Shown here: positions 3,205 to 59,170 of the stretch, piece after piece
Layout: each line of letters opens with the position of its first letter
Numbering within the stretch: position 1 is the first letter of the stretch
Source of the DNA: a bacterium
GTDB taxonomy: Bacteria; Electryoneota; Electryoneia; Electryoneales; Electryoneaceae
DNA length: 64,000 bases
Direction: 5' to 3'
Assembly: GCA_020444265.1 (NCBI GenBank)
Contig: JAHLLH010000002.1
Location: forward strand, 671,033 to 735,032
The notes under the pieces: generated by a model
Database searches by the model: none
The model's input: the letters and a program-made list of their open reading frames with translations, nothing else
What the model was told of the DNA's origin: nothing
Translations under genes and position numbers: made by a program

Positions 3205-3208
3205 CAAG

Positions 3209-3293
3209 TACCGAGGGGGGGACTCGAACCCCCAAGGGCGCAGGGCCCGGCGGATTTTGAGTCCGCTGCGTCTACCAATTCCGCCACCCCGGC
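3209..3293 (-). tRNA. tRNA-Leu(CAA)
   Basis: 85 nt including discriminator A, with no encoded CCA. Read on the minus strand it begins GCCGGGGTGGCGGAATTGGTA and the acceptor pairs GCCGGGG with CCTCGGT (two G-U pairs). The anticodon arm is GCGGA-CTCAAAA-TCCGC, giving anticodon CAA for UUG. A long variable arm (CCGGGCCCTGCGCCCTT region) and a T-arm with GGGGG-TTCGAGT-CCCCC confirm a class II leucine tRNA. Confidence 0.95.
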
Positions 3294-34100: not shown

Positions 34101-34912
34101 AGCGAGGTGAGTTCATAGGTGCCCTCGGTCAGCAGCATATCTCGAACACTGCCATCTGCCGAGTCGATGACGGCTTGAATCGACGCGGTCAAGTCTGTGG
34201 TACCGAACCACTCGGGCAGGATGTTCTGCCGCTTCGCGAATGTGATCTGGCTGCCATCATCCGCACAGGCAAATATCTGCCTCGCATAGGCGCTGAATTT
34301 TGACTCGATTGTGAGACTCTTGCCTGTCTCCACAGAGATAATAGCCCCGGCCTCCATTTGGAGGGTGATGTTCTCCGGGATGGTGATGTCGCTATCAATC
34401 AGGACGTCATTCTTAATCGCCAGGACAGCCCGTTCGGTGCCGATGACATCCAGGGCATCGCTGAGTGACTCATAGGCCTCAACATCCTCCACGCCAAAAT
34501 TGACATTCCCATCTGGAGTGCGGGTTGATCGAACCGGATGGGTTGCGGTTTGGGCGAAGGTTGGTTCGGCAATCATCGAAACGGTGTCACCATTACTTAG
34601 TTCGACTGACACGTGCCTCCGCCCCTGCTCGTCGGCAGTGACCCCCTTGACCGCCAGGAGGTCGATGGTACCCTCTCCTCCCGGTACGCGGTAAACAGGA
34701 GTACGGAGCTCTTGATCTCCATTTATTGCGATGTATTGACCTAACGGGACAGTCCATGTTTTACCTGCCTCATCCATCCAGACAAGTGCTTTGTGGTCAC
34801 CGCCCAGAACATCGCGAGCGGTGATAGCTGCGGTTTGCCCAGGGCGGAGAGCACCGACATCGTTTGGTCGGATTTCCGCATGACGGGGCGGCTGTCGGCG
34901 GCGTTTGTTCAT
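31172..34912 (-). CDS. Tailspike, right-handed beta-helix
   Basis: 1246 aa receptor-binding spike. The N-terminal 130 residues should attach it to the tail. Two beta-helix entry motifs follow: LPEWFGTTDLTASIQAVID (about 230) and TPFWFGAAADGVTDDTGPVQSAL (about 325), the latter the pectate-lyase-superfamily signature. Many short repeats (NSKRVAIERCSF, GNIIRQHADS, NSIIGGNWTS, RGNSVRYANRGIFVDDAGQYDIQGNNITD) build the helix. A Thr/Ala-rich beta domain (about 455-547, AGDTITITIDSTDYAETYATSSDA) interrupts it. The C-terminus (from about 1110) is a separate beta domain, perhaps for trimerisation. It probably binds or cleaves surface polysaccharide. ATG overlaps the nozzle stop (TGATG). Confidence 0.85.
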   Translation of the reverse strand: MNKRRRQPPRHAEIRPNDVGALRPGQTAAITARDVLGGDHKALVWMDEAGKTWTVPLGQYIAINGDQELRTPVYRVPGGEGTIDLLAVKGVTADEQGRRHVSVELSNGDTVSMIAEPTFAQTATHPVRSTRTPDGNVNFGVEDVEAYESLSDALDVIGTERAVLAIKNDVLIDSDITIPENITLQMEAGAIISVETGKSLTIESKFSAYARQIFACADDGSQITFAKRQNILPEWFGTTDLTASIQAVIDSADGSVRDMLLTEGTYELTSLLTVPANIRTRMKSGALLSWSSGKAPTFSGRFNCPDTEQAFDCDVGDEPTLESVRHVTPFWFGAAADGVTDDTGPVQSALNCSQNLFIPAADYLVGGELDGQALPNGGQIIGQGRDRSRFYFEGAADGDLLLEIDGPDHISIADVGFLVDSGYTATYCGSGLKVLNSKRVAIERCSFRSHFWQEREATVAINAALVAGDTITITIDSTDYAETYATSSDATMTAVASACEADAACVSASYDSGTKTITLTLTAATTTAVTLAASVSSAGAGTASATVSGRDHVDAYSDDVIPASAMQNGVFFDTCESAVVRDCDFEAGMYSPVRFRKTSRSLVSSCYFEDTVRAIMYDDNSPAGVDAVQENNVYQDIRHTITKMENAVDGGQFIGNRITISSTAATMGQAAGLIVNHSSYSLVQGNIIRQHADSCKAQSAISVEGPAVHARVHANSIIGGNWTSRLNDDYGELGRAAITIHTNLGSDAYISVDDNDILGQSADVMAGISVVSRAVMVTKNRIVGDGIGVGVDRVENGVYLAPKSLNTTVRGNSVRYANRGIFVDDAGQYDIQGNNITDTAGHMIELHGLVPIGTIQNNRLNFTVTAGSTQNGIHFDGKRFDVISYDETVEGPLLSIDSGNKTGIPLGIGNNPFSDGDSIEVYGATDSDLNGVWTVETESDGSTIVINLAFASATAGSPTEAFSVQGVGILRGVRIAGNQITGGYKGLYLRNERGIDNFIYDIQANDNYVEDTRRDGIHIERAYRYSVLSNHIKDVNQSSGSTTRGILLKNSSGVSAIGNIQSGTNVQWGMFLQGVDNFIALGNQAESYSESGCTNGYSQASLVDNIFATQGPLLRDGNGAGTGTGTISELLTIPVGSGSGGINTSNVLVPAGCVVTSVSWIVYQAPGGGAATMSIGRVGSPTEFANSVACATQGDSGTSYDQATPAGFLPNGTDKKLTVTTNADVTVSDMIVRLVVTYCVADAPVQ

Positions 34913-37900
34913 CAGTACCCCCTTCGCAGGCCGGTGGGCCGTGCTTCGATCTCGACCTCAAATAACTCGAGGCGGTCGGTGTCATCGCTGCCGGTGAGGT
35001 AGAGCTTGACGGCATCGCCGAGGGTGGACTTGGGCAGGGCGAGCAGCTTGTATGCTTGGGTCAGCCGCACCGATTCGCTAGAGAGTTTCCGTGTGTGAGG
35101 ATCCCGCAGGTAGAGGGTGGACAACAGCCCGCTGGCGCGAGTTGTGTGAGACCGGGTTGCATAGTCCACCGACCAACTACGCCAGGAGGCGGAGCCGACC
35201 ACGGGGATGAGGCCAGATTCGAAGGTGATCGGGATGGTGATGCCGCTGCCGGTCCAGTTGTCGGTGAGGGCGGCATCGCTCAGGGTGTAGAGCCTCGGGT
35301 CATCCCAGGCGGCACCGGCCCAGATCAGCTCATTGCGGTCACCGGGTCCACTCCCGACCAGGTGGGGCCCGAAGGGAAAGAGATTGTCACTCGAGCGGAG
35401 CCAGGACCCCCAGCGGGGTCGTGCGCTGCCACCCTCCAGAATGGGTGGATCAAAAAACTCGGTGGACATGGCCAGCAGGGTGTCGCCAATCACGGCGGGG
35501 CTCAGGTCGATGTCCTCGGGGATGTCATCCCCTCCACCGCCACTCTTTTCGAGGGGGGTGCCACCGCTGTCGAGGGATGGGTAGGAAAGCAGCAGTAATC
35601 GTCGGATTGGATCAAAGGCGAGGCTTGTCCGTTCCAGCTGTGTGCCGTAAAGGTTGGCGACGCCATCATCGATGGGTTCACCGATCCAGTGCAGCTGCTG
35701 ACCGTCGAAAGCGCGGACTCGTCGGTCGGAACCGAGGAAGGCAATGACCTCAACTTCACGGTCCTGGAACGCGAGGGTGGCATAGGTCCAGGCTCGCGGC
35801 CCGGCCAGCCCGACTCGCTGAGTGACGATGTCGAGGTTTTCCTGATCGGTCCAGAAGGCCCGTTGGGCATCGAAGCGGTAGAGGTGGATGCGGTTGCTTT
35901 TGACGGCGACGAGGGCATTGTGCAGGGCGGCGCCGGCAATGAAGCTGCCGCCATCATCTTCATCTCTGATCAAATGCTCGGCATCGATGGGCCAGGCATG
36001 GGGTAGACCGGTTTTGCTGATGTAGATACGTCCGCTGTGGTCGGGGCGCTCGTTGGTCGATTCATCGATGGTCTCGATGGCGACATCGACATCGCTGGCC
36101 AGGTAGCCACGCCGTGCCGCGAGAGCAATCAGTTCTTCGGCGGAGGGCGCATAGCTGAAGAGGCGGTCATTTTTCACGCATGCCTGGCAGCCATTACTTC
36201 CCGAAGAGGCTCCAAGCCGCCAGGGGACCTCTGTCGAGAAGCCACCGCCCGTGGTCCAGAAATCGCTTGCAGTATAGCTGTCCTGGACCACATCACCGGT
36301 GGCCATGTTGACGGCCACGAAAATGACATCCCAATCCCCGTCATCCCGTCTCCTCGCAGACCAGCCCACCGCCCACCAGGCATTTAGCAACTCGCCACCC
36401 GTACCAATGGTGAGGGTGTAGGTCTGACCCGCACTGTAGAGGGTGATGGAGGCATAGGTGCTGTTGTCATCCAGCAGCTTCAGAATGGCATTGTTTCCCC
36501 AGCTGTAGAGCTGCCCGGAGAGGTTGACGGAGGTAAGACGCACGAAAGTGAGCCGTCCGAGTTCAACCGGAAAGGCGGTCAGCCCGAGGCTATCGAGATC
36601 GACTGCGCTGGTGGTGTAGGGCAAAACAACAAAGCTGTCCTGGTTCCAGGGGCGATCATAGGCGGGGTTGTGGTTGAACGGCGGACCATCCGGGTCTCCG
36701 GACGAGGCCCACGCCGCACTGTTCAAAAACTCGCCAGGGTAGTCCCCCGCTCGATTCTGAGGGCCATCCTCATCCGGCTCATCCATGTAGAAATGGGCGA
36801 GGTCGGTGCGCCGGGTCAATTCGGGCTGGAAGATGTCTGTCCAGAGACTCTCGAAGCTGGAGTAACCGGTCTCGGCTTCGTAGTGGAGGTAGAGGGTGAC
36901 TCGTCCGGATGCAGGCAATTCGGGCAGCTGGACGGTGAAAGTGATTTCCGAGCCGTTGTAGCCGCTCATGATGTAGGGCAGCACGGTGATTTGATCATCG
37001 TCACAGAGCACCAAATCACTGCCATCGCTGTGCTGGTCGGTGTAGCCATCCAGACCGGAAAAGGGGATGGTGATGTCTACCGGGACGCGAGTTTCGGTGC
37101 GCGGGTTGGGGTTGGTGATGACCACTCGCGCGACTCGGGTGGTCAGGATGTCCTTGCCGGAGGCGGAATCCCAGGGCCGTTTCGGCGCGGGTCCGAGGTT
37201 GCCGATGGCGACCATTGCATCCCGCACGGCCACCAGGGATTTGGGGACGGGTGGCAGGTGGTTGTCGAGGGTAGCGGGCAGCCCTTCGGCAGGGTCGGTG
37301 CTCGAATGGGTGGTTCCGGTCAGGCCCGCTTTTTCCTCGCGCTGAGTCCAGTCGCCGAAGAGATCATCGGCGAAGGCTTTATAGCGCATGGGGAAGGACC
37401 TGGCCAGCACACGTGCGGCGGTGGCAGTGTCGAGCTCATTGCCCTGGGTGACATTGGTCAGCTCGATGGAGGCGAGGCCGAGGTCATTGGCGGTCCGTCC
37501 ACGAAAGACACTGCCGAAGACATTGGAACGTGGGCCAGGGTTGCTGTGCTCGCCATCATCATAGACAAACGCCTGAGCCAGCTGGTAGATGCCATGCGGG
37601 ATGGCGTTCTCTTCGGGGGAACCGCCGAGGGTAACGCTGCTGATGACGGGGGTGGCCGCAGGCGGAAGGTAGCCGAGCGGGCCACCGGTCACGCTGCCCA
37701 GGTCGCTGGCGATTTCCTCGATGTACTTGATTTCATACAGGGTGTCACTCAGGACAAAGAGGTCACGCAGGACAGCGGAGACTGGCGTGCGCAGGGCGAC
37801 CCGCAAGAGGAAACGGTCATCCAGGGTGGTCCATGCACCATCGGCGGTGAGCTGGTCATCCTTACGGACACTCAGGCGGAGGCCGTTGGCATTCTCCGGG

Positions 37901-38166
37901 TCGGCATTGTTAGGGCTGAGGCCGAGGAGGTAGCGGTGACCATCGGGTGCATACCAGCGATGCAACGAATAGAGCCGGTCGAGGACATTGGTGGCGGTGA
38001 CCATCTGCACGGCGGGCCTGCGCAGCAGCCCCTGCCTGGTGTGGACCAGGTTGACCAGGTTGACGGCCTGGCCGAGGTTCAGGCGGTCGGGGTCATAGCG
38101 TGTGACCATCCCGCCGGAAAGGGGGATGGTGAGCCGTGTGTGTCCTTTTAGCTCGACCGGTTTCAT
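34912..38166 (-). CDS. Tail nozzle (T7 gp12-like) with inserted domains
   Basis: 1084 aa. The start, SGGMVTRYDPDRLNLGQAVNLVNLVHTRQGLLRRPAV, is the hallmark of podovirus nozzle/tail-tubular-B proteins, and beta-propeller-like strands continue (NALVAVKSNRIHLYRF; GPRAWTYATLAFQDREVEVIAFLGSDRRVRAFDG). From about residue 349 an extra segment (VVITNPNPRTETRVPVDITIPFSGLDGYTD...GRVTLYLHYE) resembles DUF2341, followed by a LamG-like stretch (about 470-640, GQLYSWGNNAILKLLDDN...WWAVGWSARR). These inserts add about 300 aa compared with T7 gp12 and may bind carbohydrate. It is coupled to the upstream adaptor gene by TGATG. Confidence 0.75.
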   Translation of the reverse strand: MKPVELKGHTRLTIPLSGGMVTRYDPDRLNLGQAVNLVNLVHTRQGLLRRPAVQMVTATNVLDRLYSLHRWYAPDGHRYLLGLSPNNADPENANGLRLSVRKDDQLTADGAWTTLDDRFLLRVALRTPVSAVLRDLFVLSDTLYEIKYIEEIASDLGSVTGGPLGYLPPAATPVISSVTLGGSPEENAIPHGIYQLAQAFVYDDGEHSNPGPRSNVFGSVFRGRTANDLGLASIELTNVTQGNELDTATAARVLARSFPMRYKAFADDLFGDWTQREEKAGLTGTTHSSTDPAEGLPATLDNHLPPVPKSLVAVRDAMVAIGNLGPAPKRPWDSASGKDILTTRVARVVITNPNPRTETRVPVDITIPFSGLDGYTDQHSDGSDLVLCDDDQITVLPYIMSGYNGSEITFTVQLPELPASGRVTLYLHYEAETGYSSFESLWTDIFQPELTRRTDLAHFYMDEPDEDGPQNRAGDYPGEFLNSAAWASSGDPDGPPFNHNPAYDRPWNQDSFVVLPYTTSAVDLDSLGLTAFPVELGRLTFVRLTSVNLSGQLYSWGNNAILKLLDDNSTYASITLYSAGQTYTLTIGTGGELLNAWWAVGWSARRRDDGDWDVIFVAVNMATGDVVQDSYTASDFWTTGGGFSTEVPWRLGASSGSNGCQACVKNDRLFSYAPSAEELIALAARRGYLASDVDVAIETIDESTNERPDHSGRIYISKTGLPHAWPIDAEHLIRDEDDGGSFIAGAALHNALVAVKSNRIHLYRFDAQRAFWTDQENLDIVTQRVGLAGPRAWTYATLAFQDREVEVIAFLGSDRRVRAFDGQQLHWIGEPIDDGVANLYGTQLERTSLAFDPIRRLLLLSYPSLDSGGTPLEKSGGGGDDIPEDIDLSPAVIGDTLLAMSTEFFDPPILEGGSARPRWGSWLRSSDNLFPFGPHLVGSGPGDRNELIWAGAAWDDPRLYTLSDAALTDNWTGSGITIPITFESGLIPVVGSASWRSWSVDYATRSHTTRASGLLSTLYLRDPHTRKLSSESVRLTQAYKLLALPKSTLGDAVKLYLTGSDDTDRLELFEVEIEARPTGLRRGY

Positions 38167-39080
38167 CAGTAGTCCTCGTAGTCGGTGCCATATCGTTCAG
38201 CATGTCCGCTGACACCCCGGAGGTAGGGATTGTGCTCGAAGTCCCCCTCTTCGATGATCTCGGAGGGTCGTTCAACATCCTTGAGCGCGTCCATTACCTC
38301 GTTCCGGGTCTGGTCGGTCAAGCGGGCTCGTGTGGCAAAGTCGAAGGCGGCCAGCGGCAAGCTGCTGGCAACGATCTCGGGCAACTCAGAGGCGATATCG
38401 ATGAGGGCTGGCACGCCGGAACGTGTGCCGGTACCGGAGATACCGAGGTCACAATAGGGGTTTGACGAGTTGCCGTTTTCCTGGATGGTGCGCTCTTGCA
38501 CGACCCCGCCATCGGCCAGGAAAAACGCTTCACCCTGGAGCTGGTTTTCCGTAAACGGCCAGCGCCCCGCTGTCTTGCTCCATTCTCCGTCCTCTCGAGT
38601 CAAGGTCCCCACAGCATCGCGGAAGAGGTCCGGCTGGTTGGGTGCGCGGAGGTACTCGACGGTGAGGGTGTCATCGGCCTCCGGGAAGGGGTACACCTCG
38701 AGGCGCGGAGGATTGCCTGCCCCGGCATTGATGAAGCGATGACAAGGGATGGTCTTGGTGCCTTGTGCCGCCAGAGACTCGGCCTCATAGCGATGGGCGG
38801 AAGGTTTAGACAGTGTCCCGCTGTAGGTGATCCGGATGGCGGTAACACGATCGACAGAGGGAATGCCGTTTAATTCGAGATAGCCCTGGGAGACCATCGA
38901 GGAGGTGACCGTGATGGTCAGCTCGTCAGTAATGGTGTTGCTGAACCAAGGGCGTACCAGCTCCCAAAGGCGACGGTCTGCACGCTGAAGGTTATACACC
39001 AAGAGGCGTTCGTCCAGCTGGCCCATGCCTGCCTGAGTGAGGAGGAGTCTCAGCTGGTCGAGGGCGGTTTTGGTCCTCAT
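38166..39080 (-). CDS. Head-tail adaptor / tail tubular A-like protein
   Basis: 304 aa. An N-terminal helical region (ALDQLRLLLTQAGMGQLDERLLVYNLQRADRRLWELVRPWF) precedes a beta-rich middle and a C-terminal helix (AAFDFATRARLTDQTRNEVMDAL), the arrangement of podovirus adaptor (T7 gp11-type) proteins, which form a ring between portal and nozzle. No close family is recognised; the assignment rests on order (before the nozzle) and fold-like pattern. It overlaps the preceding gene by ATGA and the nozzle gene by one base. Confidence 0.6.
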   Translation of the reverse strand: MRTKTALDQLRLLLTQAGMGQLDERLLVYNLQRADRRLWELVRPWFSNTITDELTITVTSSMVSQGYLELNGIPSVDRVTAIRITYSGTLSKPSAHRYEAESLAAQGTKTIPCHRFINAGAGNPPRLEVYPFPEADDTLTVEYLRAPNQPDLFRDAVGTLTREDGEWSKTAGRWPFTENQLQGEAFFLADGGVVQERTIQENGNSSNPYCDLGISGTGTRSGVPALIDIASELPEIVASSLPLAAFDFATRARLTDQTRNEVMDALKDVERPSEIIEEGDFEHNPYLRGVSGHAERYGTDYEDY

Positions 39081-39946
39081 CGACGGCCTCCCTTCGGTTG
39101 TTCGATCGGGATCCCGGTAAAGGCGACCAGGGCTTGCAGAGTACGTTTCTCTACCTGGTCGAATCCGGGCGCTTCGGAATCATCGGCAAGCAGCTCACGT
39201 GCGGTAGCCAGGGCGAGAAGCCTGGCATGGGTGTCACTCAGGTCGGCGAACTCGGCAAGCAGGTTATAGGAGTAGGTGTCAGTGGCCAGCCCGGAAGCGG
39301 TGAAGGTGACACCGGTATCATCCCCATCGGTGATGGTGTAGAGGGATTCATCGACGAGGATGGTGCCACCATTCCAATAGTCGGCGGTCCATTCGCGGCT
39401 GGTATCGGTCAGCTCGCGAACATCGCCACCGGGGGAGCTGACTCCACCATTTCCCCGATCATACCAAAGACCACTTGTGAGGGCAGTCAGCTCGAGGGTG
39501 CCCGTGCTGCCTTCCGGATAGACCTGGATGGTGTTGCCCGTGAGCACCACGGCAGGCCGAGCGAACGAAGGGCCGAGGGTGGGGTCTTGAGCAACGGCCA
39601 GGTACTCTTGCCTGGTGTAGATGTCGCAATGGAAACCATTGAAGGCGGCTTGCAGCAGAGCGATGACATTCTGGCGACCCTGGAGGGTGACGGTCGAGGG
39701 GTAGCCCTCGGTGACGGTTTGATCAGGCATGGTGTTGATGTAGCCTCGAGCCTGTTCAAAGGCGAAGGTCTCGAGCGAGGGGCGCGGCAACATCCGGCGC
39801 ACCTCGTTCCAGATCCACGCCTCGGCCTCGAGCAGAGCCCGGATGCGGTCAATGCGGGGGTAGCGTACCCAATCAGCAGGAGTCCTGCTGGACTCGCTTT
39901 CAAGGTGTTCGCCAGCTCGGGCGATGATGTCAGCAATGGCGTGCAT
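39077..39946 (-). CDS. Adaptor-type virion protein
   Basis: 289 aa. It resembles the following gene in plan: helical start (ADIIARAGEHLESESS...RIDRIRALLEAEAWIWNEVRRML), beta-rich middle (TGNTIQVYPEGSTGTLELTALTSG), helical end (DLSDTHARLLALATARELLADDSEA). It may be a second ring or completion protein of the connector. A palindromic element and a hairpin lie just upstream, so a transcription start or processing site here is possible. Confidence 0.55.
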   Translation of the reverse strand: MHAIADIIARAGEHLESESSRTPADWVRYPRIDRIRALLEAEAWIWNEVRRMLPRPSLETFAFEQARGYINTMPDQTVTEGYPSTVTLQGRQNVIALLQAAFNGFHCDIYTRQEYLAVAQDPTLGPSFARPAVVLTGNTIQVYPEGSTGTLELTALTSGLWYDRGNGGVSSPGGDVRELTDTSREWTADYWNGGTILVDESLYTITDGDDTGVTFTASGLATDTYSYNLLAEFADLSDTHARLLALATARELLADDSEAPGFDQVEKRTLQALVAFTGIPIEQPKGGRR

Positions 39947-39972
39947 GGATGGCCTCGGGTAGTGATGGTCTC

Positions 39973-40014
39973 GTGACAGTCACTCTTAAACGTCAAAACC
40001 TTGGTGACAGTCAC
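39973..40014 (-). promoter_or_regulatory. Dyad element, copy 1
   Basis: GTGACAGTCAC occurs at 39973-39983 and 40004-40014, flanking 20 bases. GTGACwGTyAC/GTrACTGTCAC arms are found again in a related 41-base element at 49699-49739, also directly upstream of a minus-strand gene. Candidate operator or activator site for phage transcription. A hairpin (GTTTCCTGT...ACAGGAAAC, about 40028-40053) lies beside it. Confidence 0.45.
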
Positions 40015-40106
40015 GGTCACGAACGGTGTTTCCTGTGTTTCGCAACAGGAAACAGGGGGATTGAGGGCGGGTGACTGCCCAACGACAGCCATCCGCCCTC
40101 GTGCGG

Positions 40107-40652
40107 TCATTCAAGGCCAAAAGTCTGGAGCACGGTTCCGGACCTGTTCACAACGCTCGAAATGGGCTTGGGGTCGATCGCGCTGGCGGTCCCGCTGACA
40201 ATGACGAGAACTTCGGTATCCTCCCCGCTACCGGTATTGCCTTTGAGTTGGATACCCAGGTATCTCGCAAATGTCGAGTAGGTGATGTACTTGGAGGTAT
40301 CGGTGCTTTCAGTCTGGAAGTTTGCGAACGCTTCTGTCCAGGTAGACCAGGTGCCATAGGCCGAGGACTTGAATGCCGTATTGACATCGACAATGGCCGA
40401 GCCTGTATCACTGACCACATTCACAGTCAGCTGGAGGCTGTCACCCACGGCGTAGATGTCGCCGATGTAGACACTGACGACAACGGAATCAGAGGCACCA
40501 TCCAGGTATTGAAGGGTGTCACTGCCCGCACCGTTCAGGTGGCAGACGACTGCCGAGGTGGAGCCATAGCCCGCTGCGCCGACCATGACGGGGATGGTCA
40601 TGACGGCGAGCAACAGGGTGATGGTCATGATGACCAGGGATTTCAGTTTCAT
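40107..40652 (-). CDS. Secreted/anchored phage protein with signal sequence
   Basis: 181 aa. MKLKSLVIMTITLLLAVMT followed by IPVMVGAAGYG is a typical signal peptide (n-region KLK, hydrophobic core, AAG cleavage area near residue 27). The mature part is Ser/Thr-rich and beta-predicted (SDSVVVSVYIGDIYAVGDSLQLTVNVVSDTGSAIVDV). It lies between capsid and adaptor genes, where a decoration or head-fibre protein might be expected, but the signal sequence points to export. Function unknown. Confidence 0.6.
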   Translation of the reverse strand: MKLKSLVIMTITLLLAVMTIPVMVGAAGYGSTSAVVCHLNGAGSDTLQYLDGASDSVVVSVYIGDIYAVGDSLQLTVNVVSDTGSAIVDVNTAFKSSAYGTWSTWTEAFANFQTESTDTSKYITYSTFARYLGIQLKGNTGSGEDTEVLVIVSGTASAIDPKPISSVVNRSGTVLQTFGLE

Positions 40653-40762
40653 CGGTATCTCCTTTTCGGAGTGGGTTGTCGTTGTGTTGTGCCGGGTACT
40701 GCTGTTCAGCCGGGGATAAACCCGGTCAACAGGGTGACCGGGCCGTCCACGGGGTTAGGGGT

Positions 40763-41995
40763 TTACTCGCTGGAGTGCTTGTATCGACGGGCGATGTGCA
40801 GGAACGAGGTATTGTTCAGGACAGTGCCGTCGCTGTTGAGCTTGCGGTCGAACCGCTTGGCTCCACGGACGCGACCGGTCCAGAAGGCGAGTCGTTCCTC
40901 GTACTCCTCGCTCTTGTCGTACTTGGTCTTCATGGGGGAGCCGTTGTTGATGCGCACGGCACCGCCACCCAGCATGAAGCCAATGTCAAAGGCCGCCGCT
41001 CCACCGATTTCAACGGGGATGTCCTCGTTGGAAAGGCTGGCGAAGTCCATGATGGTGCGAGCGGTCGTACCCTCACCATCGGTGGTGGTGGTCAGCTCGC
41101 TGAACTTGCGCGGGGTGATCGGCGCGAGGCCGGTGGCGATGAAGAGGATGTCCGACCAGACGCCAATGCGTGTGTCGTGCATCTCGTTCTTGTCGCCCCG
41201 GACACCGATGTCCCGCCACTCGTCATGCAGGGCCATGCGCCATTTGGTCCAGAGACCATAGGAGCAGGCATAGACGCCAGAGTAGGACCGTCCGCCGATT
41301 TCGACGCGGGTCATGGTGTTGCGCTGCGTCTCATACTGCAACGCTTCGGCCAGCTCGACCGAGGGGACATCGCCATTGGGGTTGTCTTCGAGGGCAGCAT
41401 AGCTGCTACCGAAGGCCTTACCCCAGCGGATGTTCGGGTGAGCGGCGACCGGGTAGAGGCTCAGGTTCGAGCGGTGAATGTTGGCGGAATAGCCATAGAG
41501 CAGGGTGTACCAGTAGTCCGACCACTCCCAGAGGCCATAACCACGTGCGAGCTGGATATCCAGCACCGAACGGACCTTGAGATCGGTCCAGGCCTCGACC
41601 TCTTCGACATCATCCATTCCCTGCCCATGACGGATCATGTAGTTGGGAATCTGGTCGGTCGCGAAGTCGGGAGTACCCTCGTTGGTCCGCATCTTTTCAG
41701 AGTGGACAACACCTTGCTGGCCAGCCGCTTCAATGCTGGCCTGGAAGATGGGTTCGAGGGCGCGGACGACGGTGGTCTGCCCTTTCTTGGACGGCTCGGA
41801 CTGCACGACAAACGGCGAGGCAGCCGGGGGCGGCCCTTCCGGATCGGCAGTCATGCCGTTGGCATCCACACGGGAGACGAGTCCCATTTGGAAGGCCGGG
41901 TTGGCACGGTAGGCGGTCTGTTCCAACACTCGAGACTGTTGCTCGATGTTGAGATTGCCTTTTGTTCCCGCGCTGTCAGTAACATTGTTGCCCAT
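40763..41995 (-). CDS. Major capsid protein (N4 gp56-like)
   Basis: 410 aa. Position after the scaffold gene, length, and segments such as GMDDVEEVEAWTDLKVRSVLDIQLARGYGLWEWSDYWYTLLYGYSANIHRSN, GKAFGSSYAALEDNPNGDVPSVELAEAL and FDIGFMLGGGAVRINNG match the N4-gp56 family of HK97-fold capsid proteins found in podoviruses. The N-terminus (DSAGTKGNLNIEQQSRVLEQTAYRA) would be the arm. The Mu capsid family (gpT) is not similar. Confidence 0.75.
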   Translation of the reverse strand: MGNNVTDSAGTKGNLNIEQQSRVLEQTAYRANPAFQMGLVSRVDANGMTADPEGPPPAASPFVVQSEPSKKGQTTVVRALEPIFQASIEAAGQQGVVHSEKMRTNEGTPDFATDQIPNYMIRHGQGMDDVEEVEAWTDLKVRSVLDIQLARGYGLWEWSDYWYTLLYGYSANIHRSNLSLYPVAAHPNIRWGKAFGSSYAALEDNPNGDVPSVELAEALQYETQRNTMTRVEIGGRSYSGVYACSYGLWTKWRMALHDEWRDIGVRGDKNEMHDTRIGVWSDILFIATGLAPITPRKFSELTTTTDGEGTTARTIMDFASLSNEDIPVEIGGAAAFDIGFMLGGGAVRINNGSPMKTKYDKSEEYEERLAFWTGRVRGAKRFDRKLNSDGTVLNNTSFLHIARRYKHSSE

Positions 41996-42064
41996 GAGTC
42001 AGCTCCTTCTGCTGATGAATTCCTGGTGTTGGGTTGTGTTGTCAGGTTGTATTGTCAGGGTCGG

Positions 42065-42847
42065 TTAGCCGCCGTAGACCTTTTTCCTGTAGGCCGCAAA
42101 CTCCTTGTCGCTCATCTTCCAGAGCTCTTCCTCGGTGACCTCCTCGACCGGCTTGACGGCATTGCTGCCCTTGCCGCCAACGGGCTGGATGGTGAGGCGG
42201 GTGTCATCTCGACCGGCTTTACGTGCCGCCTGGGTGACCTGTTCGCGGACCTTGTCCTGGGTCATGAGCATGGCGGCATAGTTGAGCGGCAGCTCTTTTT
42301 CTTGGGCGAAGGTTTCGACCTGTTCGAGGGTGACTCCCTCGATTTTGTTGTCCGAGAGGAACTTTTCCGCTTCGGCGCGTTCGGCCCCGTACTGCTGTTG
42401 GATGTTCTGCGCACGGAGGATGAGTTGGATGGTCTCGTCCTTGGTCATTCCGCCTGTCGCGGTTTTGTCGCTGTCACCATCCTTGCCGCCCTTGTCATCG
42501 CCAGCACCGCCACCCTTGTTAGCATTGGCGAGGGCATTGGTGATCTGATCGAGGGTCGGCCCCTTACTGTTGTTGGCCTTCTGGTGCAGGGTGTCGATGT
42601 ACTCGGTCATCTTCGGAAGCACCTGGCCGAACTCTTCCATGCTGGTGACCTGGACGGTTTCATCGCCGAGGGTGAACTCATAGGCTTTGGCAGCACCGCC
42701 ACCATCGCCACCGCCATCACTTGCATCGCCGTCGCCTCCACCGTCTCCAGCGCCGTCGCCACCGGCACCGCTACCACCATCACCGGCGTCGTGGTACGCG
42801 GCAAACGGTTCAAGGCCCTGCGCGATTCGTCTCAAAAAGTCCCTCAT
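42065..42847 (-). CDS. Scaffolding protein
   Basis: 260 aa, strongly acidic and helical. A low-complexity Gly/Asp segment (residues about 20-52, DAGDGGSGAGGDGAGDGGGD and onward) is followed by helices (MEEFGQVLPKMTEYIDTLHQKANN; RAEAEKFLSDNKIEGVTLEQVETFAQEKELPLNYAAMLMTQDKVREQVTQAARKAG). Acidic, helical, unconserved proteins between portal and capsid genes are assembly scaffolds. It begins 12 bases after the portal stop. Confidence 0.7.
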   Translation of the reverse strand: MRDFLRRIAQGLEPFAAYHDAGDGGSGAGGDGAGDGGGDGDASDGGGDGGGAAKAYEFTLGDETVQVTSMEEFGQVLPKMTEYIDTLHQKANNSKGPTLDQITNALANANKGGGAGDDKGGKDGDSDKTATGGMTKDETIQLILRAQNIQQQYGAERAEAEKFLSDNKIEGVTLEQVETFAQEKELPLNYAAMLMTQDKVREQVTQAARKAGRDDTRLTIQPVGGKGSNAVKPVEEVTEEELWKMSDKEFAAYRKKVYGG

Positions 42848-42858
42848 GGTTCACTCCT

Positions 42859-44673
42859 TCATGGTTCGGGGTAGAAGTCTTCGTTGTCTTCGTTTAAGGG
42901 TTCGCCGATAGCCTCGAGCTGCTGTTCGAGCTGAATCGCCCCTTCCACCTTTGCGAGTTGGTCGGGGTGTTCGAGCAGCCATTTGCCGAGGCTGATGGCC
43001 TGATTGCGCTCGTCCATCATTTGTGTCATTTCGCCGGAACGTGGATCCCGGATGTAGTGCAGGTAGCCTGCAAGGTCGAGGTGGCCCATTTGCAGTAGGT
43101 TGGCCCCACGGTCCTCCGTTCGGGCCGCCTGAACGGCGGCATCGATGTCAAAACGGACGTTCAGGTCGTACCGTAGCGGGGTGGCCCATCGCTGGAAGAG
43201 GAAGGGTGAGTCTTCTTTGACAGTCACGTCTTCCGGCATCACGCCGAGGGTCATGGAGGAGCGCTTCTTTTCGCCGTTCTGGTCGTCCACGATGCGCACT
43301 TTTTTCGGGTAGGGGATTTTGCGCTGGATCAGCTCGACCCCGAGGGCGCCCTGATGGTCGATGAAGCCCTGGAAGTTTTCCTCGTAGGGAGAGATGACCT
43401 TGATGGCCGCTGATTGCAGCCGGGCCACGGTCACGCCTGGTGTGTTGGCCCCAGGGGCAACACCGGTAGCGGCTTCGCTGATGGTGGACTGCATCTCGAG
43501 GAACTGAAGTAGCATGTTGGCTAGATCGACAAGCCCCTGGGCGCGGTTGGGGAACTCGAGGATGTCACTCGAGTTTTTCAGCTCTTCGCCCAGGTTGTCA
43601 TGGATCGCGATTTGGCCTTTTTTAATGGCTCGCCGGACGGAGAGCGGGAGTTTGTCGCGGAAGCGGGCAATGAACGAGTTGCTCCGGCTGCCAGCATCCA
43701 ACGCCTGGCTGACGGCCCCCGAAATAGCATCCTGTAATTCGCGCAGGTGGTCGCCGAGGCCGACTGCGCCTTCGGTGTCTTCCTCTTCTGCGTCGAAGGT
43801 GAAGAGGCTCCAGATGGAGTGCTGCAAGCCGGTGGGGCGGTCTTCCAGGATGGTGGTGCCATCGGTTTCCCCACCAAGCATGATCGAGGTCAAACGCCAG
43901 TAGCCCTTTTGTCCGAGCAGGTCCACGGCAGTGAGGTCATCCCGATCAGTTTCGGGAATGGACTCGATGTCTTTATCCTGGATAACGAGGGGCTCGTCAT
44001 TGAAGTAGATCTTTTCGCCATCTGCGGGGCACCACCACTCGACCTCTGCGATGGTCGCCTCGTTCTTGCGTTTCTTCTCCCCGCGGAGCTCGCGGTAAGT
44101 GTTGCTGACGGGGAGCTCACGTCGATAGCGGGACTTCGCGACATCCCGGTCCATCTTCATGAAGTGAACAACGAACCGTCGATCAGAGAAGTCGGGCTCA
44201 TCCGCATCCGGGTCCACGGTGAAGCTGAGCGGACTGACCCGTTGCACTCGGAGGTTGCCTTGCTCGTCCACGGAGGAGCGTGTCCCACCGAGACCGTGCA
44301 TCACCCCGTCAAACATTGCCTCAAAAGCGGAGGGCCAGAATTTGGCTTCCTTGAAGAGGACATCGAGGCCGAGTTTGAACTGGCCCGCGTGCTCCTGATC
44401 CTCTTCTCCGATCGGGTCAACATCGATGTCCCGCTCGGCTCGTTTGATGAGGCCAAACAGGGCGTTGACGAACCAGCGCGTAACTCCGAGGCTGACCCAC
44501 AGTTTCTCATCCTCAAGCCCTTTGGGCCGTCCACGCGAGAGGTACCGTCGATAGTTCTCGCGGTAGCGTTCCGCAAAGCGGCTCTGCTGGCGGGCATCCT
44601 TTGCCTTGGTCACCATGTCTGTGACATAGCGAGCGAGATCATCCCGCTGTTTGGGATCGTGCTTGAAGTCCAT
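42859..44673 (-). CDS. Portal protein
   Basis: 604 aa. It follows TerL with a one-base gap. Typical portal features: an N-terminal helical clip-side region (AERYRENYRRYLSRGR), an alpha/beta stem-wing region (VQRVSPLSFTVDPDADEPDFSDRRFVVHFMKMDRD), a membrane-free helical crown, and SAATGVAPGANTPGVTVARLQSAAIKVISPYEENFQGFIDH, characteristic of podovirus-type portals. It forms the dodecameric DNA channel of the head. Confidence 0.78.
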   Translation of the reverse strand: MDFKHDPKQRDDLARYVTDMVTKAKDARQQSRFAERYRENYRRYLSRGRPKGLEDEKLWVSLGVTRWFVNALFGLIKRAERDIDVDPIGEEDQEHAGQFKLGLDVLFKEAKFWPSAFEAMFDGVMHGLGGTRSSVDEQGNLRVQRVSPLSFTVDPDADEPDFSDRRFVVHFMKMDRDVAKSRYRRELPVSNTYRELRGEKKRKNEATIAEVEWWCPADGEKIYFNDEPLVIQDKDIESIPETDRDDLTAVDLLGQKGYWRLTSIMLGGETDGTTILEDRPTGLQHSIWSLFTFDAEEEDTEGAVGLGDHLRELQDAISGAVSQALDAGSRSNSFIARFRDKLPLSVRRAIKKGQIAIHDNLGEELKNSSDILEFPNRAQGLVDLANMLLQFLEMQSTISEAATGVAPGANTPGVTVARLQSAAIKVISPYEENFQGFIDHQGALGVELIQRKIPYPKKVRIVDDQNGEKKRSSMTLGVMPEDVTVKEDSPFLFQRWATPLRYDLNVRFDIDAAVQAARTEDRGANLLQMGHLDLAGYLHYIRDPRSGEMTQMMDERNQAISLGKWLLEHPDQLAKVEGAIQLEQQLEAIGEPLNEDNEDFYPEP

Positions 44674-44674
44674 A

Positions 44675-46480
44675 TCAGTCTCCCATTGTCACGTTCATGC
44701 GGTTTGCGAAGGGGTTGCCGGTGTCGATATCGTCATCCTCGTCCTCGTAGGTGTCTCGGGCGGCAGACGAAGTATCCACGTAGGGAGTGAAACCTGCAAT
44801 GGATTCGAATTGAACGGCATCGAGCAAGTCCCATTCCCCGGAGTTGGCCGGGTTGAAGGGGAAGTTTTCATAGGCGCGGAGAAGGTCCTGGCGCAGGTCG
44901 TGGACGGTGTCATCCCAGGTGCGGTGATAGGTGATGATCCCTTTGGGCGGGATGAGGTAGCCATGACGTTCGGTGCGGGCGACCATCGAGTAAATACGTC
45001 CGGGCTTGGAGCCTGGGTTGTCTTCCCTTTTGAAGCCGGTCAGGCGTGTGCCGATGGTAAAGCCGGGATCCTCTTTCTTCATCTCCAGCTCGTACTCGTT
45101 GAGCTGGAGTTTGAGTGCTTCGAGGTCACCATTCTGGAAACCGAAGGCCTCCCATGCAACTCGTCCCTCGCGGAAGATGGCCGGGTGTTTTTTCATCAGG
45201 CCGGTGGCAGCTTTGGCGCGTGCGGATGGGGTGGTCAGCTTGTCCACCAGGCCATCCACGATGTAGCGGTGACCGGTGGACGTGCGGTAGATGACAACCA
45301 GGGCGGTGAAGTCGGATTTTAACGTTTTCGATGTCGCAGGGTCACAGGTTAGTGTGATAGCTGCTACATCAGGCAGCTGCTCCCATGTGCCGAGCCACTC
45401 GGTTGCGAAAGCACGATCACTAGGGGAGTGTGGCTCAAGCTCATATTGTGTTGCGTAAAGTTCTGGACCCTCGATACGTCGCCGTTCATCAAGAAAAACA
45501 GGTGTGTATTTCTTCGGGAAGAAGGAGACGCGAGTGCCGTCATTCTGCACCACTTCGGCGGGAGCTTTCAAGATGCGGAAACGCTGTCCATCTGGCAGGT
45601 CTTTTAATTCTTCTTTGAAGAAGTTGTAAATGTCGAAACGGTGCCATCTGGTCATCTTAGCTGCGATGCGTGCGCCTGGCTCATCAGCAATGGAATAGAG
45701 GGCGCGGATGTGGCGCTCCACGATAGCCAGCCAGTTGACCGCTACCTCGGGATTGCGGAGTTTCCCCTCGTCATACATATCGTCAATGTTCAGCTTGGTA
45801 ACGTGGGAGCCGATTTGAGACGCGCCAGGGGCTGTAACCATGAAGGAGGGTTCTTTCCTGATGACCCGTCTCGATGCAAGCGTCATTTCCTGATCGTTCC
45901 AGGGAGTTCCCTTTTGAGGCCCGAAGAAATGGCGAACCTCGCTGGACACAAGCTTGCCCTGTAGTTCGGTGATGTATTTGGCCCCAAAGCCGAGATCGAT
46001 TGCGGTGAGCAGGATGCGCTCGTTGTCCGGATCAGCGAGGAGGTCTCGTGCATCCTGGGCGATGGAAAGGGTGGTTTTAAAGCATCCGCGTGCTACCCAA
46101 AGGCCCGTGCGAGGATAGCCTCCCGGCCATGCTTCCATGAGTTGAACGGCCTCTTCGTCACTGCTTTCCGGCAGGATACCCCACTCCATCAGAGGCAGGA
46201 TGACGTTGCGATGAGGCTCGTCTTCAAGCCTGGTGTAGTTGAGGATGTACTTGCTCAGGAAGAAGAGGTTGTCTACGCCTCGTTTCAGGCAGTATTCGGC
46301 AATGGTGTCGCGGTTTTCATGGGTCACGCGTTCATCGCTGGTGATACCCCACACGGCAGCCGCCTGGTAGATGTGCTCGACCTGGTTGATGTGCTCCATG
46401 TCGGCGGAGATGGCGGCGAGCTCTTGCTGGATTTTACCCAGGTCGCGGAGCTCGCGGTCGGTGCGCGGGATCCGGCTCAT
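44675..46480 (-). CDS. Terminase large subunit
   Basis: 601 aa packaging motor. N-terminal ATPase: the P-loop is VARGCFKTT (129-137), a non-classical form as in many terminases, and Walker B LNIDDMYDE (about 230-237). C-terminal RNase H-like nuclease: LTCDPATSKTLKSDFTALVV with the first catalytic Asp, VAWEAFGF with an acidic residue, and EWDLLDAVQF with the last Asp. It overlaps the small-subunit gene by ATGA. Mu-type phages package by headful from integrated copies, so host DNA next to the prophage would be co-packaged. Confidence 0.88.
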   Translation of the reverse strand: MSRIPRTDRELRDLGKIQQELAAISADMEHINQVEHIYQAAAVWGITSDERVTHENRDTIAEYCLKRGVDNLFFLSKYILNYTRLEDEPHRNVILPLMEWGILPESSDEEAVQLMEAWPGGYPRTGLWVARGCFKTTLSIAQDARDLLADPDNERILLTAIDLGFGAKYITELQGKLVSSEVRHFFGPQKGTPWNDQEMTLASRRVIRKEPSFMVTAPGASQIGSHVTKLNIDDMYDEGKLRNPEVAVNWLAIVERHIRALYSIADEPGARIAAKMTRWHRFDIYNFFKEELKDLPDGQRFRILKAPAEVVQNDGTRVSFFPKKYTPVFLDERRRIEGPELYATQYELEPHSPSDRAFATEWLGTWEQLPDVAAITLTCDPATSKTLKSDFTALVVIYRTSTGHRYIVDGLVDKLTTPSARAKAATGLMKKHPAIFREGRVAWEAFGFQNGDLEALKLQLNEYELEMKKEDPGFTIGTRLTGFKREDNPGSKPGRIYSMVARTERHGYLIPPKGIITYHRTWDDTVHDLRQDLLRAYENFPFNPANSGEWDLLDAVQFESIAGFTPYVDTSSAARDTYEDEDDDIDTGNPFANRMNVTMGD

Positions 46481-55398: not shown

Positions 55399-55896
55399 CT
55401 AGCCCTCCCGCTTTTTATTTCGAATTTGGAGGAGTACCCAAGCGAGGAACTGGTGGAGGGTTGGTATGTTGCCTTGCTCATCACCCCAGCCACCTTCTGG
55501 CTCAGGCATATGACTACTGTCGAAGTAGGGAGAGAGGTTGTGGTGACAGTTGTGTTGATCGTTGATGTACCACCGTTCGCCACACGGGTCGTAGCCGATA
55601 CGGAAGTCGGTGTCCAGGCCAAATGCAAACAGCTGCTTCGCAACCTCATCGAGGAACTCATGCGCGAGCTCCGGTTGAGGTAGCCTGATCACTTTGTTCG
55701 CGATCTCTTTTACTTTCCCTTGAAGGTTCTGGATCGCTTGGTTTAATTCGTTAACGCCATCGATGCCATATTTTTCCAGGTATTTTTCAAGCCTCCATAT
55801 TTCGATGTTGCCAATGAGGCTAGTTGACGTGGGCAATCCAGACTGATTATCCACGACGATATCAATTTTAATCAGTGTTTTCTCGACATGGTCCAT
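55399..55896 (-). CDS. Phage protein, unknown, AT-rich
   Basis: 165 aa. A helical middle (GNIEIWRLEKYLEKYGIDGVNELNQAIQNLQGKVKEIANKVI) and FGLDTDFRIGYDPCGERWYINDQHNCHHNLSPYF near the C-terminus. Codon use is more AT-rich than in neighbours, as in the gene at 23059, which suggests recent acquisition. AAAGGACAAGG gives the ribosome site. It is the first gene after the structured spacer and may open a new transcription unit. Confidence 0.65.
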   Translation of the reverse strand: MDHVEKTLIKIDIVVDNQSGLPTSTSLIGNIEIWRLEKYLEKYGIDGVNELNQAIQNLQGKVKEIANKVIRLPQPELAHEFLDEVAKQLFAFGLDTDFRIGYDPCGERWYINDQHNCHHNLSPYFDSSHMPEPEGGWGDEQGNIPTLHQFLAWVLLQIRNKKREG

Positions 55897-55922
55897 GTCC
55901 TTGTCCTTTCACCTGTCCTGAT

Positions 55923-56148
55923 CCCCACCGACCAGCGCCCCAGGGGGGTAAGGCGCTGGCCTGGCTGTCGGTGGGGTTGCTCCGTGCCAGGGCTTCTCCC
56001 GGTGGAACCGTTGGGAGGGGTATGTCTTGGGCCTTTCAGCCCGGTGGGGATATCGGGGCTCGAACCCGGTGCGGCATGGTTACCGTTATCCCCTCGGCAC
56101 CCTTGCGGGTGCCTGATGCACGATTGAGCCGGGATTATGGGACCCGGC
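55923..56148 (-). ncRNA. Possible structured RNA between the ATPase gene and the middle genes
   Basis: The 355 bases 55897-56252 have no gene but, read on the minus strand, carry in order: GCCGGG/CCCGGC stem with 9-base loop (56128-56148), GGCACCC-TTGC-GGGTGCC (56096-56113), a tRNA-like fold (56046-56093: GGGGATA/TATCCCC closing stem, a 5-bp hairpin with ACCA loop, and a T-arm-like CGGG-TTCGAGC-CCCG), and a long stem CCCCACCGAC + CAGCGCC with partners (55923-55976). An operon leader, terminator/antiterminator set or stand-alone RNA are all possible. Confidence 0.4.
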
Positions 56149-56252
56149 ACCCGATTGGTTGCTCCCCGTCACCCTTGCGGTCACCGTCCTGATGCCATCG
56201 GCCTCGGCTCCTACGGATCGACGGGGGTCTCTGGTAAGCGTGGAGCGGTGGA

Positions 56253-57362
56253 TCAAGCCCGCTCCTGCTTTGCCGTCTCGTCCTGGGAAACGAGACTCTT
56301 TTCACCGAGCACTCGTATGGCGGATGCCACCAAAGCCGTCTTGGCCGCCGTACCGTGACTCGGATCATTGATGTATCGACTGACCTCACTTGCCGAGACC
56401 TTCTGGCCAGTGGTGTCCTGGATGTGTTTCTCGATAGCCCTGGTCGAGGGCTTGCCGTGCTTCTCCCACAGCGAGCGCATGAACATGGTGGACTCATCTG
56501 CCATGTAGACATGGCCGATGTCGATGCGTGTATCCCCTGCATTGACCGCATTGTCAGCGGCCAGCTTGAGGACGCGCAGCACTTCGATCGGGAAGCGCAG
56601 ATCGATGCCGTCCCCGTCCTTTTTCCGTTTGGCGATGTACTCAATAGCCTCGTCGCTGATCACATCTGTGAGGGCCTTTTTTCCGCCGAGGGCGGCACGG
56701 ATGCGATGGCGAATAAACAGCTTGATCTCTTCGGGGGAGAGCGGTGGCAGCTCGTGGATGGTGGCGCGAGCGTGAACGTCCTCAAGGCCCTCAATACGTC
56801 CTCCCAGCCGTCTCCATCCGACAAACAGCACGCCGCAGACATGCTGTCTCATGTCACTGTCCGTGAGGTCGGTTTCGATCAGCTGGCGGATGGAGCGCAG
56901 GATGTGCGGGTGGAAGTCATGGCAGTTGTCGAACAGCAGCAAGATGCCATCCGGGTAGAGGTCATCTCGTTGCAGCTGCCTGAGCGCACGGCGGACCCGT
57001 CCCTTGTTCCACTGTTTACGGGTGATGGTGATGCCATTGTCTTCCGCTGTACTGAGGATGGTGTCGGTGACCTCTTTCATCGTGAAGGTCATCGAGTTGG
57101 TCGGCGAAAAGGCAATGACCAGGACGCGGGGGTTATCGTTCTTTTCTTCCTGGATGACTTGGCGAATAATCGTGGACTTTCCAGCCCCTCGGTCTCCCAG
57201 GATGACCTCGATAGCGCGGTTCTTGATGGCGTTGGCCACCTTCGCGCGGACGAGGTTCACGGCGGCGGTCTCTACGAAGGCATGCGACCCCTCCAGTTGC
57301 TCAAAGGGTGGCTCCTCGAATCCCAACCATTCCCAAGATGGTTTGTAGGCAGTTTTTGACAT
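56253..57362 (-). CDS. AAA ATPase, MuB-type transposition protein
   Basis: 369 aa. Walker A GDRGAGKST (56-64), Walker B ILLLFDNCH (140-148), and sensor-type GVLFVGWRRL follow the ExeA/TniB/MuB AAA layout. In Mu the ATPase binds target DNA, gives target immunity and activates the transposase. A C-terminal HTH-like segment (about 310-355, STRAIEKHIQDTTGQKVSASEVSRYINDPSHGTAAKTALVASAIRVL) is present, whereas MuB carries its HTH at the N-terminus. It starts 26 bases after the transposase stop. Confidence 0.85.
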   Translation of the reverse strand: MSKTAYKPSWEWLGFEEPPFEQLEGSHAFVETAAVNLVRAKVANAIKNRAIEVILGDRGAGKSTIIRQVIQEEKNDNPRVLVIAFSPTNSMTFTMKEVTDTILSTAEDNGITITRKQWNKGRVRRALRQLQRDDLYPDGILLLFDNCHDFHPHILRSIRQLIETDLTDSDMRQHVCGVLFVGWRRLGGRIEGLEDVHARATIHELPPLSPEEIKLFIRHRIRAALGGKKALTDVISDEAIEYIAKRKKDGDGIDLRFPIEVLRVLKLAADNAVNAGDTRIDIGHVYMADESTMFMRSLWEKHGKPSTRAIEKHIQDTTGQKVSASEVSRYINDPSHGTAAKTALVASAIRVLGEKSLVSQDETAKQERA

Positions 57363-57388: not shown

Positions 57389-59170
57389 TTATCCGCCCTG
57401 AGCGGCACCTCCCTGGTGCAAGCGGGCGGCCCAGGCATCGGCACGTGCTGCGATGGTCTCGCGGTCGAGGGTCTTGTCCAGGGTCTCCTCGATTTCAAGC
57501 CAGATGCCGGGGTAGTTGATCTTGATCGCGATGAGCTGCATGACGCCGAGCTGCTTGGCAATCCAGTGCTTGGCAGCATCGATGTTGTGGAATTCGTCTC
57601 GGTGTGTCGTGAAAGGCGTCTTGACCGTTTCGCCCTCTTTCTGGCGGGATGACAGCGACAGCGGACCCGATGGCCGGACGGCATTGGGGTGCATCACTGG
57701 CGAATCGATATGGGGGTCTTCGGCGACCTTCTGAGCAGGGGTTTTTTGACGTCCAGCACCAACGGCATTGCCGAAGTCATGGACGCGCAGGGTGCCACCC
57801 TCGCCATCTTTCTCGTCCCAGGAAGGCGCAACGACGCGGCGGCCTGGTGATGCCTCGACATGCTCCTGCTCGGGGTCGTAGGGGTCCCGGATAAGCACTT
57901 GGCCGAGGGCATTGCGGAAGATGAGGACACGGCGGCCAGCAAACCGGGTAGGCACGTGGAACCATCCGCGCTCATCGTTGTTACGCAGTGCTTTGACGTT
58001 GAAGTCCGCATGAATCGAGAGGGTCTTCTCTTCAACCGCGTAAGGCAGCGAGGCCAGGTCTTCCGGGGGAAGCCGGAGCTCGTTGCGAGCTGCATGATCT
58101 CTCCAGATGTCGGCGCGGTTGGTGATGTCGGTCGGGTGCTTCTTGGCGTTGTATTCCTCGAGCCAGTTTTCGAGGTACTCGTTGAGGCCGGAGAGGGTGA
58201 TTTCAAACGGCTTGCCGTGCCGCATGCTTTCGCGGTGCATGGCGATGAAAGGGCGCTCGAACTTGGTTTTAATGGTCCGCCAGAGGCGCTCGACTTTCCC
58301 TTGTGCCTCTTTGTGGTGCGGCATGGTTCTCGTATGCTTGACACTGATTTCCGGCAGGTCAAAAAACTCCTGGATGATGCGGTTGCGTGCAAAGGCACCG
58401 TTGTCCGTTTGCAGGATTTCCGGCAGGCCGCCGAATGGTGTTTCGGGGTGGTAGGCCCATGCTTGTTGCAGGAAACGGAGCATCATGAGGGTGTCTTCGC
58501 CAACGGTAGCGAAATAGCGGACAAAGGCGCAGCGGCTTCGGTCATCGACAATGCCCGCCATCCAGATAGCCCGCTCCCCTTTCCATTTGCGCGTATTAGC
58601 ATTCAAGTCAAAGTCGCGGACCTGGAGCAACCAATCCCCGTCTCCTAGGTCTTCCACAGCGGTGAAGACCGACGTACCGGAAGCATCCATGAGGTGGCGC
58701 TGGTTGACGTGCGAGGCTTCGATGCGGAAGCGTGGCTCCGGGATCCGGTAGCCTTGTGAGCGAGCGCGTCGATTGTAGGACGAGACGCTCATGCAGCCGG
58801 TTGGGATGAGACCGTTGACCTCCGCCATCCGGATAGCATCCTCGGCGGCCATCATGACCCCACGTTTCAGCTCGTTCCGGCTGTCCTGCTGCAATTCGAA
58901 TACCGTGCGTACCCATTCAGTCTTGATTTTTCGGGGGAGTCCTGCATCCGATCGAGTCTTCACTTCGGGCAGCTTTTTGCGTTTAACAATGCGGCTTGCG
59001 CGGTAGATGGTGTCTTTGCTGACCTGGTAGAGTTGGGCGAGCTCGTTCAGCTTGGCCGTTTTCTCCCCATGCCTGGCAGCCTGGAGCTCCTGATAGACAA
59101 ACTCCATAGCCTGCTCGTCCAGATTGCGGGGAGCATACTCGAACCCATTGCCCTGGCCAGCTTGACCCAT
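57389..59170 (-). CDS. DDE transposase/integrase (MuA role)
   Basis: 593 aa. N-terminal HTH (about 39-61, AKLNELAQLYQVSKDTIYRASRI), a rve-type catalytic domain with the triad Asp162 (HLMDASG), Asp256 (LQTDNGAF) and Glu294 (GKVERLWR), and a Mu_transpos_C-like beta barrel (about 390-450, HADFNVKALRNNDERGWFHVPTRFAGRRV). The last 60 residues (AAKHWIAKQLGVMQLIAIKI...) may contact the ATPase. It pairs the phage ends (TGCAATAAAT) and transposes replicatively. The D-E spacing (37 residues) is closer to TniA/integrase than to MuA (55). Confidence 0.92.
   Translation of the reverse strand: MGQAGQGNGFEYAPRNLDEQAMEFVYQELQAARHGEKTAKLNELAQLYQVSKDTIYRASRIVKRKKLPEVKTRSDAGLPRKIKTEWVRTVFELQQDSRNELKRGVMMAAEDAIRMAEVNGLIPTGCMSVSSYNRRARSQGYRIPEPRFRIEASHVNQRHLMDASGTSVFTAVEDLGDGDWLLQVRDFDLNANTRKWKGERAIWMAGIVDDRSRCAFVRYFATVGEDTLMMLRFLQQAWAYHPETPFGGLPEILQTDNGAFARNRIIQEFFDLPEISVKHTRTMPHHKEAQGKVERLWRTIKTKFERPFIAMHRESMRHGKPFEITLSGLNEYLENWLEEYNAKKHPTDITNRADIWRDHAARNELRLPPEDLASLPYAVEEKTLSIHADFNVKALRNNDERGWFHVPTRFAGRRVLIFRNALGQVLIRDPYDPEQEHVEASPGRRVVAPSWDEKDGEGGTLRVHDFGNAVGAGRQKTPAQKVAEDPHIDSPVMHPNAVRPSGPLSLSSRQKEGETVKTPFTTHRDEFHNIDAAKHWIAKQLGVMQLIAIKINYPGIWLEIEETLDKTLDRETIAARADAWAARLHQGGAAQGG

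Follow-up and report, generated by a model that had tools for sequence, protein, structure and literature searches.

What occupies the structured, gene-free stretch that follows the transposition genes of a transposable, Mu-like prophage on the 64-kb window (the whole stretch of DNA analysed): a tRNA-like RNA under selection, the remnant of a tRNA gene, or an accident of GC-rich sequence? The stretch lies in the minus-strand gene block of the prophage, in the following setting.

57389..59170, minus strand: gene for a MuA-like DDE transposase (phrog_310 transposase, E 3.1e-32), upstream of the ATPase gene
56253..57362, minus strand: gene for a MuB-like AAA ATPase (phrog_296 DNA transposition protein, E 1.3e-13; Pfam AAA_22), upstream of the spacer in the reading direction
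55897..56252, minus strand: non-coding spacer of 356 nt, 66% GC, probable leader of the downstream genes (ORF list, codon-position composition and folds)
55399..55896, minus strand: ORF of 165 aa, downstream of the spacer (ORF list), without a match in PHROGs and Pfam searches

With two doubtful overlapping ORFs set aside, the spacer is the longest gap without genes in this tightly packed block. Its base composition is flat with respect to codon position, and its only ORFs are short, overlapping and GC-rich. A protein-coding spacer was ruled out on these two grounds, and the preliminary description, which had called the stretch gene-free, was right in that no convincing gene was found in the 356 nt. 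The spacer is probably transcribed with the early operon as a leader. The same prophage (window 34912-46480 and 57389-59170) joins its MuA/MuB-type transposition module with a portal (phrog_156), a terminase and a protein that weakly matches phage internal virion proteins. A tblastn search of the terminase against the phage collection gave a sole match at 22% identity to the ANMV-1 virus, which is associated with an uncultured archaeon.

Within the spacer, sequence inspection and folding delimited one compact element.

56043..56093, minus strand: mini-tRNA-like element with a 7-bp acceptor-like stem, a 5-bp hairpin, a T-arm with the loop TTCGAGC, and ACC; 48 bases precede the ACC

Read along the minus strand from 56093 to 56043, the element is GGGGATA A CGGTA-ACCA-TGCCG CA CCGGG-TTCGAGC-CCCGA TATCCCC ACC. 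A miniature tRNA had been described here, with a perfect 7-bp stem followed by ACC, a T-arm with a canonical loop, and a single short hairpin replacing the D and anticodon arms; each of these features was recovered on re-reading the sequence. All seven pairs of GGGGATA/TATCCCC are Watson-Crick and the ACC is in place, the loop TTCGAGC conforms to TTCRANN with the G53-C61 pair present, and the D and anticodon arms are absent, their place being taken by a 17-nt insert with one 5-bp hairpin (CGGTA-ACCA-TGCCG, one pair being G-T). Of the five T-stem positions four are paired, 49-65 being a C-A mismatch; the CCA lacks its last A, since ACC is followed by G. A CCA end can also be added post-transcriptionally. 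Since the tRNA-like fold has an energy of -20.6 kcal/mol against -20.7 kcal/mol for the minimum free energy (MFE) structure, the two are co-optimal, T-loop tertiary contacts being uncounted. Folding predicts the acceptor stem in most sequence contexts, its pairs having a mean probability of 0.64-0.98; the corresponding means are about 0.6-0.7 in the hairpin and about 0.4 in the T-arm. Taken alone, the element scores z -2.3 against shuffles.

The element is flanked by further stems and repeats, listed below.

56096..56113, minus strand: 7-bp hairpin GGCACCC-GCAA-GGGTGCC, 2 nt upstream of the mini element (spacer fold; pair probability 0.999)
56029..56042, minus strand: 5-bp hairpin GGGCT-GAAA-GGCCC, directly abutting the ACC (MFE fold of the spacer)
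55923..55976, minus strand: 20-pair hairpin in two segments of 8 and 12 bp separated by an 8-nt bulge, 26 nt upstream of the following start codon (folding)
55921..55930, minus strand: CGGTGGGGAT, a 10-nt perfect complement of the acceptor 3' strand plus ACCG (56051-56042), from a repeat search
56124..56195, minus strand: diverged partial copy of 56119-56035 (local self-alignment score 39)

The three flanking stems of the preliminary description are thus all present (56113-56096, 56042-56029 and 55976-55923), and the first two are closed by GNRA tetraloops; the GCAA-capped one gives z -3.1 for the surrounding 37 nt. The 20-pair hairpin is not a typical intrinsic terminator because it is without a U-run, and no intrinsic terminator was found on the minus strand of the spacer. 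The self-match between 56195-56124 and 56119-56035 was equalled by 2 of 300 shuffles of the spacer; the pattern shared by both copies is GCATCAGG...CCGCAAGGGTG.C..GGGGA..., and judging from this alignment the two may represent an imperfect tandem duplication, of which the upstream copy (56195-56124) has not retained the tRNA-like pairs. Through the 10-nt complement the leader might regulate the 165-aa gene in cis, as a switch or attenuator: 56051-56042 would pair with 55930-55921, the latter otherwise helping to close the 20-pair hairpin. The two pairings are mutually exclusive and share CCCCACCG, and the hairpin is close to the start codon; however, the competing pairing has a predicted probability of only 0.03-0.13, a terminator U-run is lacking, and the complementarity may stem from repeated C/G-rich words, so that we consider a switch very unlikely.

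On the minus strand the 356-nt spacer as a whole folds only moderately better than its shuffles (z -2.4 to -2.9), and on the plus strand no better than they do (z -0.1). This bulk structure is unexceptional, because values of z -2.47 or lower occur in 4 of 44 other stretches of the phage's minus strand. Measured against shuffles, two minus-strand stretches of the phage region, 49493-49848 and 62309-62664, exceed the spacer in stability (z about -4.0 and -3.9). The earlier judgement that the stretch is likely functional found no support: its bulk fold energy is within the range of other phage stretches and no homologue was found. No function is needed to account for the shape, either, as an internally deleted relic of a tRNA or chance would suffice.

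How readily chance produces such a shape was estimated by simulation with a descriptor built from a priori tRNA features. In its basic form it comprised seven Watson-Crick acceptor pairs adjoining a T-arm, the motif TTCRA, a T-stem of at least 4/5 pairs and an insert of at most 33-40 nt. The mini element is its one match in the window, against 0.01-0.05 expected per 64 kb, a range that reflects the composition model. A chance origin would make the element a product of a GC-rich, stem-rich leader in which a T-loop hexamer happens to fall between complementary strands, with neither tRNA ancestry nor tRNA-like function. The basic motif of acceptor plus T-arm arises about once per 30 windows of 64 kb (about 0.035 per 64 kb; 0.013-0.037 over the simulations), and real sequence of about 1.1 Mb held two chance matches to it. 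The possible diverged duplicate without the structure and an insert unlike those of tRNAs also fit with chance. However, when G53-C61 and CC were added, the expectation dropped to about 0.001 per 64 kb (0.0007-0.0013), and the compact hairpin lowered it further, with no case in three simulations of 192 Mb each (576 Mb). All these per-window rates are to be read with the fact that the element was picked post hoc from a large scan of unknown size, which itself favors chance. The tRNA-like shape is nevertheless hard to reach by chance once all a priori tRNA features count, and chance, a serious rival in GC-rich DNA, is in our estimate plausible but on balance doubtful.

Searches for relatives found no second copy of the element. 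The spacer DNA matched none of 147 related genomes besides its own, and the wider phage region had no match in the phage collection; in phages and plasmids, the matches of the mini element and of the spacer were all short and weak. Peptide patterns of the ATPase, transposase and terminase found no relative among viral and genome contigs; degenerate patterns of the mini element found none in 2.9 million viral contigs and only its own copy in 386 genomes. A covariance model of the element, run on 39 genomes of the phylum, retrieved the element itself, one tRNA, a tmRNA 3' end and a weak match, L194, which we judged to be chance. Another genome of the phylum (G035) carries a distant transposase/ATPase pair of about 21-30% identity, too remote for comparison of the spacer. 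Literature searches on natural minihelix tRNAs in phages brought up no direct precedent.

By the tests applied, the mini element does not qualify as a tRNA: D and anticodon arms are missing, and neither ARAGORN nor the Rfam tRNA model (RF00005) recognised it. Its T-arm/acceptor half weakly resembles the corresponding half of phage tRNAs, several of its weak blast matches falling in annotated ones for Asp and Gly. A pattern search found full tRNAs with the acceptor GGGGATA/TATCCCC at 80 readable viral loci. ARAGORN typed 77 of these, with Leu (37) and Asn (22) dominating. Leu tRNA belongs to class II, in which a long variable arm separates the anticodon arm from the T-arm. With class II tRNAs (Leu/Ser, RF00005) the element shares the acceptor stem, a hairpin at the place of the variable arm, the T-arm and A73-C74-C75, while it differs in lacking both D and anticodon arms and in being invisible to ARAGORN and Rfam. 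Only geometry speaks for the variable-arm idea, because the 17-nt insert, when compared with tRNA interiors, scored no better than its shuffles (470 of 500 were as good).

The element resembles the tmRNA 3' domain (RF00023) in that the T-arm adjoins the acceptor 3' strand, and a tmRNA gene in another genome of the family (L195:359-726, 125.6 bits) weakly fits the mini-element model at its 3' end. In contrast to a tmRNA, the spacer gave no match to RF00023 at E up to 10, and the host carries its own normal tmRNA (G000:C16:251611-251974, 138.7 bits); a tmRNA or permuted tmRNA was ruled out on both counts. Fragments of tRNA genes are also left behind by integrating phages and mobile elements, which duplicate part of the tRNA gene that they enter (PMC9897764). 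The mini element is like such fragments (PMC9897764) in having a T-arm and acceptor part in or near mobile DNA, but differs in that the phage has a Mu-type transposase and both acceptor strands are kept. An origin from a host tRNA or attachment site was ruled out, since no host tRNA carries the mini element's acceptor and the phage transposase is MuA-like.

A closer parallel was found at L105:3645-3684 (minus strand; IMGVR_UViG_3300008459_000116), a 40-nt mini-tRNA of acceptor and T-arm with an encoded CCA. It reads GAGGGAG-CCGTTAGTT-GTGGG-TTCAAAT-CCCAC-CTCCCTC-ACCA and is located between tRNA-Lys and tRNA-Arg in a viral array. Since its linker CCGTTAGTT equals the anticodon-stem and variable-loop sequence of ordinary full tRNAs, its most likely origin is a deletion that took out the D arm and the greater part of the anticodon arm; it, too, was missed by ARAGORN and Rfam. 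Both elements have a 7-bp acceptor, a T-arm with a canonical loop, and a discriminator A followed by CC, and both lack D and anticodon arms. In the L105 element, however, all five T-stem pairs form, the CCA is encoded, the 9-nt linker contains no hairpin and real tRNA genes lie on both sides, whereas the mini element has no tRNA neighbour, an incomplete CCA and a gap filled by a hairpin.

We infer, tentatively, a tRNA ancestry for the mini element. It would be the relic of a phage-borne tRNA gene from which an internal deletion removed the D and anticodon arms, leaving the short hairpin where class II tRNAs (Leu/Ser type) carry their long variable arm, in a leader between the early transposition genes (A and B) and the next genes. 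Such an origin is counted for by the acceptor, T-arm, TTCRA, G53-C61 and A plus CC, which stand in the order and spacing of a tRNA 3' half at a low simulated chance rate. The matches of the T-arm/acceptor half to phage tRNAs and the full viral tRNAs sharing the acceptor (37/77 being Leu) point the same way at the level of sequence likeness, and L105 offers by analogy what appears to be a clean internal deletion of the same kind. Against it count the insert unlike tRNA interiors, the broken T-stem pair, the incomplete CCA and the failure of Rfam and ARAGORN to recognise the element, as well as the lack of other tRNA genes in the phage region (the window's sole tRNA, 3208-3293, lies outside the phage) and of a host tRNA with this acceptor. 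A relic of a deleted tRNA gene is the best supported of the explanations and chance the second; we adopt the relic tentatively, as a reading that falls somewhat short of an even chance.

If transcribed, the relic, with its stack of acceptor and T-arm and its 3' ACC, might act as a weak RNase P substrate, the leader being cut before G56093. RNase P contacts the stack of acceptor and T-stem, the rest of the tRNA being dispensable for binding, and the 3' RCC pairs with the P15/16 bulge of the RNase P RNA (PMC11221534). These contacts would equally suit a functional tRNA mimic under selection, one that would mark a site for RNase P processing of the early transcript or serve as a decoy for EF-Tu or tRNA enzymes. 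The position between two gene blocks is apt for a processing site, and structure is stronger on the minus than on the plus strand; on the other side stand the absence of any homologue, the hairpin directly after ACC, the missing terminal A and a T-arm occupancy of only about 0.4, and we regard such a mimic as unlikely. It seems to us distinctly improbable that selection maintains, in the leader behind the A-B genes of this transposable phage, a minimal tRNA-like RNA made up of acceptor, short hairpin and T-arm, which host tRNA enzymes would cut out or bind to process the early transcript or which would act as a decoy.

Minihelices have so far mainly been laboratory substrates of RNase P and synthetases, and selection for the mini form would make the element an unusual case of one in nature. 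If it is only a relic, it would show how phage tRNA genes can break down to compact minihelices, and that remnants of this kind go unseen by ARAGORN and Rfam.
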